A stretch of 38,325 nt of DNA from Planctomycetales bacterium. Its GTDB lineage: Bacteria; Planctomycetota; Planctomycetia; Pirellulales; S012-138. Under the pieces are notes generated by a model. The model was not told the origin of the DNA. It did no database searches and was given only the letters and a program-made list of their open reading frames with translations. The position numbers were made by a program, and so were the translations under genes. Shown piece after piece: positions 26,745-31,146 of this stretch (the first letter of the stretch is position 1; each line of letters opens with the position of its first letter). The stretch spans positions 1-38,325 of the forward strand of contig WFOE01000091.1 in assembly GCA_015488215.1 (NCBI GenBank), given 5' to 3'.

Positions 26745-26896
26745 CTGCTCATCCCCCCACGCCTCCACGCCTTCACACCCTTCGCATGAGCCGGCGGTTC
26801 GCCGGAAAACAATGCGACCTGCGTCTGCTAAGAAACTAATCCCCACTTCTCTTCCCCGCTGCGTATCGGGTTCTCAACGGCAGCACGAGTGGTTCG

Positions 26897-26926
26897 TTGG
26901 CACAGAGGGTGCGGACTCGGTAAAGT
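26897..26926 (+). promoter_or_regulatory. Candidate promoter of the DUF3179 selenoprotein gene
   Basis: TTGGCA (26897-26902), 18-base spacer, TAAAGT (26921-26926). The same place also reads TGGCACAGAGGGTGC (26898-26912), which has the GG-N10-GC spacing of sigma-54 promoters, although the -12 element is GTGC rather than TTGC. Either would give a leader of roughly 65-75 bases. Confidence 0.4.
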
Positions 26927-26999
26927 AGAAACAGGCGGCGCCGGGACTGGGCAGGGGTGGGCTTTTCCGGGGCCGGAGTTGGCTGGTGAGGAGCTCGTG

Positions 27000-28091
27000 G
27001 TGAGCTGGCGTCTTAAGAGGGTTGGGTTCCACTGGCCGGCAATCCTGTTGGCCGGAGTCGCGTTGGTTGCGGCCGGAGGAGTCTTTTTCTGGAACCGCTT
27101 GCTCCAGCAATCGGCGGCCCAGCTCGGTCGCCAAACCGACCCAAAACCTACCAACGAATTGCTTGCTCGGGTCGGGAACAACGTGGACCGGGACTTCCGG
27201 CCTGCAATCATCTTCGAGCGTCCTTTCCCCACAATTACCAAACTGACCGTCAAAACTGTCCGGGAAGCGGAAAAGTTGCTCCGTGCCGATGAGCTGGTCC
27301 TGGGGGTGGAGATTGAGGGCCAGGCGAGGGCTTATCCGATCAACTCCCTGACCGGGCCTCGCCGCGAAGTGTTCAACGATACGCTGGCCGGCCAGCCCAT
27401 TGCCGCCACGTGGTGACATCTGTGTTTCAACGGCATCGTGTATGCCAGACGGGTCGGAGGGCGGACGCTGACGTTGGGCGTCTCGGGCATGTTGTGGCAG
27501 TCCAGCGTGGTGCTGTACGACAAAGAAACCGGCAGCTTGTGGAGCCATCTGCTGGGCGTGGCCAAAGGGGGCCCACTGCGCGGAACGCGGCTGAAACAAA
27601 TCCCCTCGACAATCACCACCTGGGAACAATGGGTGGCCACCCACCCGCAGAGCACGGTGGGTTTTCTGCCACGCAGTGCAAGGCGATTCACCCGCGGGTT
27701 TTACCAGTTGCGGCCGGGGCAGTTCGTCGTCGGCCTGCGCCGCGGAAAACACGCCCGAGCCTGGGACCTGGCCGAGTTGGCCGCGTTGGATTCCCCCAGC
27801 GTGAACGAAACCTGGCAGGGAATCCCCCTGGTCGTGGTGCTGGAGAAGGAAAGCTACACCGCCCGCATCTTCTCCCGCCGCGTGGGCAACCGGGTGCTGG
27901 AGTTTTCCTGGCAGGGGGACCGCTGGGTGGACCGGCAAACCGGCACCTCCTGGCATCCGGTCACGGGGCTGGCCCTGGACGGGGAGCTGAAAGGAAAGCG
28001 GCTCGAAGCCCTGGATGGCATTCTTTCCTACCGCCGCGCGTGGCAGGATTTCCATCCCGGGAGCAGCTATTGGCCTTCCCGGTCCCGTTGA
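27000..28091 (+). CDS. DUF3179 protein with in-frame TGA, candidate selenoprotein (UxxC)
   Basis: Read through the TGA at 27414-27416 the product has 363 residues. Residues 13-30 form a membrane helix, and the rest is a DUF3179 domain, probably outside the cytoplasm. Conserved stretches lie on both sides of the TGA in the same frame: VFNDTLAGQPIAATW before it, and FNGIVYARRVGGR, LGVSGMLWQSSVVLYD, ETGSLWSHLLG and GTRLKQIP after it. The family normally has C-P-L-C after that Trp/Tyr; here it reads TGA-His-Leu-Cys, giving Sec139-x-x-Cys142. The frame stays open for 225 codons after the TGA. GTG at 27000 is used because GAGGAG lies six bases before it. The DUF3179 function is unknown, but UxxC suggests a thiol/selenol redox centre. 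A point-mutated pseudogene or sequencing error is the main alternative. Confidence 0.8.
27414..27450 (+). promoter_or_regulatory. Candidate bacterial SECIS hairpin
   Basis: Directly after the TGA the mRNA can form GGCAU (27432-27436), loop CGUGU (27437-27441) and AUGCC (27442-27446), with a possible lower GUU/GAC pairing (27424-27426 with 27448-27450). The loop starts 20 bases after the TGA and has G in its second position followed by U. As I recall, bacterial SECIS models ask for a loop 16-37 bases from the UGA, an upper stem of at least four pairs and a G among the first two loop bases; all are met. The stem is short, so this alone is weak evidence. Confidence 0.6.
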
Positions 28092-28140
28092 AAAAGGCGT
28101 GGCGACTTGGGGTCGTGAACGAGCGGCAAGGGCGGCATAA

Positions 28141-28620
28141 TCAAGCCGACTCAGCATTTGGCTGGGAACGCCGCTTGCGCATGGTGACCTGGTTGCCTTT
28201 TTCGTTGTAGGCCACCTCGGACATGAAGTTGCGCATCAGCATCAGCCCGCGGCCACAGGGGCGTTCCAGATTCTCCGGCGCGGTGCAGTCGGGCACATCT
28301 TCCGGGTTGAAACCGGCCCCCTGATCCGTGATGCGGATGTGGAACTCATCCCGGGAGACACGGCACCAGATGTGGACCTGTTTATTGGGGTCCATCCGAT
28401 TGCCGTGTTTCATGGCGTTGACCAGGGCTTCTTCCAGTGCCAGGTGGATACCGAACAGGTCGCGCTGCCCCCATTGGAATTGTTGCAGTTTCTCCAGAAT
28501 CTGGTTTAGGACCTGGCTGGCTATTTCCAGATCGGTCGGGATGCGTTGTTCCCAGACCCAATCCGATTGCGTGTTGGCTTGATTCACGGGTTTGACATCC
28601 GAGGTGGGCACGGAGTTCAT
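28141..28620 (-). CDS. RsbW-like anti-sigma/ATP-binding serine kinase
   Basis: The product (159 aa) is a stand-alone GHKL ATPase of the anti-sigma-factor kinase type. It has the N box LALEEALVNAMKHGN with Glu and Asn, G1 in DQGAGFNPED and G2 in GRGLMLMRNFM. There is no His phosphoacceptor domain, which separates it from histidine kinases. Such proteins bind a sigma factor or phosphorylate an STAS antagonist on Ser. The ATG at 28620 is chosen because homology starts after it; an upstream ATG at 28671 is possible. An STAS-domain gene lies upstream in the same direction, 224 bases away, making a likely partner-switch pair. No sigma factor or phosphatase is nearby. Confidence 0.88.
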   Translation of the reverse strand: MNSVPTSDVKPVNQANTQSDWVWEQRIPTDLEIASQVLNQILEKLQQFQWGQRDLFGIHLALEEALVNAMKHGNRMDPNKQVHIWCRVSRDEFHIRITDQGAGFNPEDVPDCTAPENLERPCGRGLMLMRNFMSEVAYNEKGNQVTMRKRRSQPNAESA

Positions 28621-30561: not shown

Positions 30562-31146
30562 ATGCTGTTGGCACAAACGGGAGCCGGCACACAGGAAGCC
30601 CTGTGGTTCTGGATCGCTCTGCTGATTGCCGCCGGCGGCACAGGAGGAAGCCTGTGGCTGAGCCTGGGCAAAAAGCTCAAAGCCTGCCCGTTGTGTTTCT
30701 ACCAGCGGTCGTTTGTCATCGCCCCGTTGGGCGTGCTGCTGTTGGGGGCGTTGAGCGGCACGGGCCAGTGGGACCTGTTCGCCCTGCTTGCGCTGCCCGC
30801 GGCCACGCCCGGGCTGGCGATTGCCGTGTTTCACGTGTATCTGGAACTTTCCGGCAAGCTGGAATGTCCGCCGGGAGCCTTGAACCTGGGCAGTGTGCCC
30901 AAGCAGAGCTGCTTGATGTTCGTGCTGCTTACCGCGGCACTGGTGCTTCAGGCTCTGGGAGCCGAAGTGCCCGGGGCCTTGGGTACCGGGGGGCTGATCG
31001 CCATCGCCGTGCTCTTCGGCGTGTTGCTTGCCGCCGGTAGTGTGGCCGCCACCCCGGGACCGCCTCCGCCGCCGAAAGAACCGTACCCGGGACCGCCCGA
31101 GACTTGCCGTCCCCCGTACCGCGGGAGTGAACCCGCCGCCGCATAA
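30562..31146 (+). CDS. dsbB: DsbB-like disulfide oxidoreductase
   Basis: The product (194 aa) is a four-helix inner-membrane protein of the DsbB/BdbC family that reoxidises a periplasmic thiol oxidase and passes electrons to quinone. The first redox pair is C42 and C45 in ACPLCFYQRS, the family signature; the second is C102 and C117 in LECPPGALNL and PKQSC. A fifth hydrophobic helix near residues 128-158 and a Pro-rich tail extend beyond classical DsbB. A strong AAGGAGG ribosome site precedes the ATG. No DsbA-type partner is adjacent. The nearby DUF3179 selenoprotein could be a redox partner, but that is only proximity. Confidence 0.88.
   Translation: MLLAQTGAGTQEALWFWIALLIAAGGTGGSLWLSLGKKLKACPLCFYQRSFVIAPLGVLLLGALSGTGQWDLFALLALPAATPGLAIAVFHVYLELSGKLECPPGALNLGSVPKQSCLMFVLLTAALVLQALGAEVPGALGTGGLIAIAVLFGVLLAAGSVAATPGPPPPPKEPYPGPPETCRPPYRGSEPAAA

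Follow-up and report, generated by a model that had tools for sequence, protein, structure and literature searches.

Here we describe a DUF3179 gene of a planctomycete in which a single in-frame TGA codon is almost certainly read as selenocysteine (Sec), a judgement drawn from the gene, its relatives and the genome that carries it. The gene lies in the window, by which we mean the whole stretch of 38,325 nucleotides analysed, contig C91 of a draft genome of 303 contigs that comes to 4.29 Mb and is 96.5% complete. From the likely start codon, GTG at 27000, to the TGA stop at 28089-28091, the frame is interrupted only by the TGA at 27414-27416, which has 138 codons ahead of it and 224 behind. 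A preliminary description of this DNA had reported two open frames of 175 and 217 codons, in the same frame and parted by one TGA, with no second stop or frameshift; the two frames correspond to the mechanical open reading frames 26889-27416 and 27438-28091, and the rest of the frame is indeed uninterrupted over 27000-28091. The features of the locus are as follows.

26988-26993, plus strand: likely ribosome-binding site GAGGAG, 6 nt ahead of GTG 27000, inferred from reading the sequence.
27000-28091, plus strand: DUF3179 selenoprotein coding sequence of 363 residues, with GTG start, internal UGA as Sec and UGA stop (PF11376 match; dN/dS below 1 before and after the TGA).
27042-27128, plus strand: N-terminal hydrophobic helix, residues 15-43, a membrane anchor or signal (AlphaFold2 helix, of low confidence there; homologues).
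27246-27674, plus strand: N-terminal DUF3179 repeat, residues 83-225, with the Sec/Cys pair (hhalign; folds alone).
27414-27416, plus strand: Sec codon TGA, residue 139, in the column of the invariant first Cys (alignment of homologues).
27417-27456, plus strand: SECIS-like hairpin, apical stem 27432-27446, loop CGUGU 27437-27441, 20 nt past the UGA, -8.7 kcal/mol (bSECIS model, family-level evidence).
27423-27425, plus strand: Cys142 (TGT), probable resolving Cys of the UxxC pair (Cys at +3 in most TGA homologues).
27711-28088, plus strand: C-terminal DUF3179 repeat, residues 238-363, without the redox pair (hhalign).

Read through the TGA, the frame gives one match to PF11376 that spans the codon and covers profile positions 4-291 of 292 (E 1.3e-55, 189 bits), and the protein belongs to the family by the curated cut-off of 27 bits. 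The motif around the codon is W-U-H-L-C, with U at the first Cys of the family CxxC; the placement of the TGA at that first Cys, with the second Cys kept, thus stands as it had been described. An antisense open reading frame of 427 amino acids (26874-28157, minus strand) covers the same DNA, and it was rejected as the coding frame because congeners differ mainly at third positions of the plus frame, and these would be first positions in the antisense frame.

One line of evidence is the same column in other genomes. Among 392 genomes of the phylum searched, DUF3179 was found in 139, and 53 of these 139 carry the TGA form; in the contig scan for relatives a single-protein query returned no match, and an alignment query gave matches. 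When the N-terminal repeats are aligned, all TGAs share a single column, the one that holds the first Cys (69 U rows, with 60 distinct downstream sequences), and this Sec/Cys column counts among the five that are invariant in the alignment. Named relatives tell the same story across many phyla: the Sec column holds TGA in 59 of 80 and TGT or TGC, and so Cys, in the other 21, the TGA forms including members of the Chloroflexota, Nitrospinota, Methylomirabilota and Acidobacteriota, while the nearest named relatives are Gemmataceae, Planctomycetaceae and other Planctomycetota. The preliminary description had proposed asking whether this column in related genomes holds Cys or TGA, and homologues do have one or the other, with no TAA or TAG there and no stops elsewhere in the domain apart from two TAG cases, of which one replaces a residue elsewhere and the other is found at the C-terminus. 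The second Cys, at +3, is kept by 50 of the 63 TGA rows from planctomycetes and by 55 of the 59 named relatives with TGA; the rest have mostly Ala, Thr or Glu. Two TGA members (L096 and L097) have USSE in place of UxxC, so the second Cys appears dispensable in some lineages. In a tree of 168 rows, built by a quick method that leaves the deep branches weak, the window's protein falls with those of its congeners in a clade made up mostly of Sec forms, and at least 13 exchanges between Sec and Cys are needed, of which well-supported branches force four.

Some genomes carry more than one copy. On the minus strand of L100 (3610-7707), four DUF3179 copies stand in tandem, with TGA at the Sec column in three and Gly in one, and the intervening sequences suggest separate genes. 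In a Dehalococcoidia genome (L134, near 4399 and 5183), two adjacent DUF3179 domains each have TGA at the Sec column.

That the TGA stands for a TGT, TGC or TGG misread in sequencing or assembly would be conceivable in a draft of 303 contigs, and is of negligible probability because the codon is also present in independent assemblies of the same genus (G392 and G393), family (G395) and order (G398), as well as in named genomes; a miscalled TGT or TGC, which had been named as a possible refutation, is therefore not what the congeners point to. Decay of a pseudogene, with the TGA as a nonsense mutation and both halves drifting, is very improbable as well. One stop does split the frame, but congeners share it, the frame is otherwise intact, and 60 distinct sequences have their TGA in one column, in which TAA and TAG never occur. 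Moreover, the sequence beyond the TGA is under coding constraint, with dN/dS of 0.21 (window and G392), 0.30 (window and G393) and 0.19 (G392 and G393) and changes mostly at third positions, and dN/dS is also below 1 ahead of the codon. Since relatives keep the TGA and dN/dS past it is low, decay and sequencing error can both be set aside.

The genome also has what is needed to insert Sec. The genes selA and selB adjoin each other on contig C165 and both exceed their curated cut-offs, a tRNA-Sec with anticodon TCA lies on contig C255, and selD lies on contig C147 (G000:C147:11647-12573, locus L234), so that all four of selA, selB, selC and selD, for which a search had been proposed, are present. 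The selD gene carries one in-frame TGA of its own, in NCAGUAGK, and SelD of this genome is therefore probably itself a selenoprotein; the position of that TGA is one which we take to be the catalytic Cys of SelD. Across the phylum, a strong selA match (E below 1e-70) was found in 48 of 53 genomes with TGA-form DUF3179 against 37 of 68 that have DUF3179 but no TGA among the matches listed (counts taken by hand; Fisher p 1.6e-5, which is only a guide, since the genomes are related). The five TGA-DUF3179 genomes without a strong selA match (four with none, one with a weak one) are all drafts. Taken alone, an in-frame TGA might also mean that UGA has been reassigned in this organism, perhaps to Trp or Gly, or is suppressed genome-wide, but of nine further genes examined in the window five end in TGA as an ordinary stop, and the in-frame TGAs occur where a known selenoprotein family has its Cys, and within SelD, in a genome with complete Sec machinery, which makes reassignment hardly credible. 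The original suggestion that Sec replaces a redox Cys, rather than random decay having struck there, is supported by the conservation of the column, by the Sec machinery and by selection past the TGA.

A further line of evidence is the RNA directly downstream of the codon. In the bSECIS model, an apical loop, 3-9 nt long and with a G in its first two positions, lies 16-37 nt past the UGA, on an upper stem of at least four pairs, with an energy of -7.5 kcal/mol or lower (PMC13188914). The window hairpin, with an apical stem of five pairs, fits this model; taken alone it is not distinguishable from chance, its stability being no greater than that of shuffled sequences (z 0.05), and its fold varies with the length of sequence taken. 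At the level of the family a SECIS-type hairpin does follow the UGA: 55 of 60 TGA sequences pass the bSECIS model against 36.5 expected and 43 at most under shuffling of synonymous codons, whereas Cys homologues show no excess by the same shuffles (11 of 24 against 10.9 expected). The apical loop starts 20-22 nt past the UGA in 53 of the 60 TGA sequences, and 81% of cells in the stem are paired in register across the TGA family, against 30-65% when the pairing is slid and 52% in Cys homologues. Several different standard pair types occur at most stem positions across the TGA family. A search of the window against Rfam returned no match.

By profile comparison, the DUF3179 domain is an internal duplication with its redox pair confined to the N-terminal copy, the two halves being homologous at an hhalign probability of 99.8 (E 1e-28). 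An AlphaFold2 model from an alignment of 46 rows reached a pLDDT of 87 and a pTM of 0.82, and the N-terminal half modelled alone reached 96.3 and 0.90. The predicted fold is all-beta, and UxxC is placed in a hairpin turn between strands 132-139 and 144-149; a site in such a turn between strands is therefore not of the thioredoxin type, and no thioredoxin fold was among the Foldseek matches listed. At the position equivalent to Sec, the C-terminal half has Ser, Asp, Glu or Asn in relatives and, in Nitrospinota, Cys; a Cys at this place may therefore go back to the ancestral repeat. The C-repeats with this Cys, from Nitrospinota and relatives, are at L126, L127, L138, L140, L145, L148, L154, L159 and L160. 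Of 73 homologues, 55 have a hydrophobic stretch ahead of the domain, some of them with a lipobox-like motif, so that export of the protein is quite likely.

A sequence search of the PDB found no relative of the protein. With Foldseek, Rieske domains were the only coherent matches among solved folds, at probabilities up to 1.00 and E-values of 0.02 and above, the N-terminal repeat aligning with a TM of 0.44 by query and 0.59 by target. Profile-profile comparison with Rieske (ISP) domains (PF00355) gave no match (probability 0.4% and 3.9%), and the cluster ligands CxH and CxxH are absent from the conserved columns of DUF3179, so that we take the relation to be at most a weak likeness of the modelled fold. 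Two giant-virus proteins, Indivirus A0A1V0SD44 and Hokovirus A0A1V0SF28, resemble the N-terminal repeat by Foldseek (TM 0.66 and 0.52 by query).

Judged from the UxxC motif alone, the protein probably acts in redox catalysis. It is rather unlikely that Sec is inserted into a protein with no redox role, one that binds a metal or small molecule through Sec or Cys together with other residues. Such binding would suit a U-x-x-C modelled in a beta-hairpin turn, much like a CPxC knuckle, as well as the weak similarity to Rieske domains and the loss of the second Cys in some homologues, but the Rieske ligands and any profile match are missing, and Sec and Cys have been exchanged repeatedly, as the tree indicates. 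Repeated exchange of this kind is the usual behaviour of catalytic redox positions.

For the redox enzyme that we favour, we envisage that the UGA at residue 139 would be decoded as Sec by SelB and tRNA-Sec, with the short hairpin directly downstream as the guide. The product would be an exported, probably membrane-anchored protein, a tandem of two similar all-beta repeats with an active site only in the first. Sec139 would most likely serve as the catalytic selenolate of an enzyme that acts outside the cytoplasm, either a thiol/selenol oxidoreductase or one of peroxidase-like type. For Cys142 we infer a resolving role: it would resolve Sec139 as a selenenylsulfide, to be re-reduced by an extracytoplasmic or membrane thiol donor, and homologues that have no second Cys would require an external thiol. 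More tentatively, the model raises the thought that DUF3179 might be a domain that is duplicated, lacks a cluster and is built on a Rieske-like beta scaffold, with the Sec/Cys pair in a hairpin turn of its N-terminal copy, and thus an exported class of selenol redox protein outside the thioredoxin fold.

The neighbourhood gave no conserved operon partner, since clustering the frames around about 145 loci yielded, for the most part, scattered families and frames that shadow DUF3179 on the antisense strand. A DsbB-like gene with a CPLC motif (30562-31146; PF02600, E 1.4e-11) lies 2.5 kb downstream in the window; as a candidate partner it was rejected, none being recognised near the copies of congeners.

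Two reviews (PMC9312934, PMC13188914) include DUF3179, with the motif UxxC/T, among the selenoprotein families, which bears out the remark in the preliminary description that entries of the family had been labelled as selenoproteins; these reviews attribute DUF3179 selenoproteins to Zhang and Gladyshev 2007 and the Olavius algarvensis symbiont. Because the reviews list it, the selenoprotein family is not new. The planctomycete protein shares with the listed selenoproteins (PF11376) the full-length domain and Sec at the first CxxC position, but has UHLC where they have UPLC; the clade to which it belongs shares about 45-50% identity with the named relatives closest to it, and the TGA form and its hairpin are here documented across one phylum. 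Cys-form DUF3179 proteins share the architecture and the invariant residues, yet have Cys, encoded by TGT or TGC, in the Sec column, no excess of SECIS-type hairpins, and genomes with or without selA. With thioredoxin-fold UxxC selenoproteins (DsbA-like, thiol-disulfide isomerase-like) DUF3179 has in common the UxxC motif and a probable extracytoplasmic site, but its fold is predicted to be all-beta and its UxxC lies in a hairpin turn rather than at a helix start. In the literature searched, mostly without subscription papers, we found no description of the duplication, of the place of UxxC in the predicted fold or of the family hairpin, and none of a function, structure or partner for DUF3179.

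The planctomycete gene is thus a well-supported addition to an already known selenoprotein family, one whose Sec form is widespread. Annotation would split this gene, like many of its relatives, into two fragments or take it for a pseudogene. From the sequences collected in this work come a hairpin consensus, invariant residues and domain boundaries for DUF3179. If the tentative scheme of a cluster-less, Rieske-like scaffold were true, a class of selenol redox enzymes outside the thioredoxin fold would be common in Planctomycetota and several other phyla.
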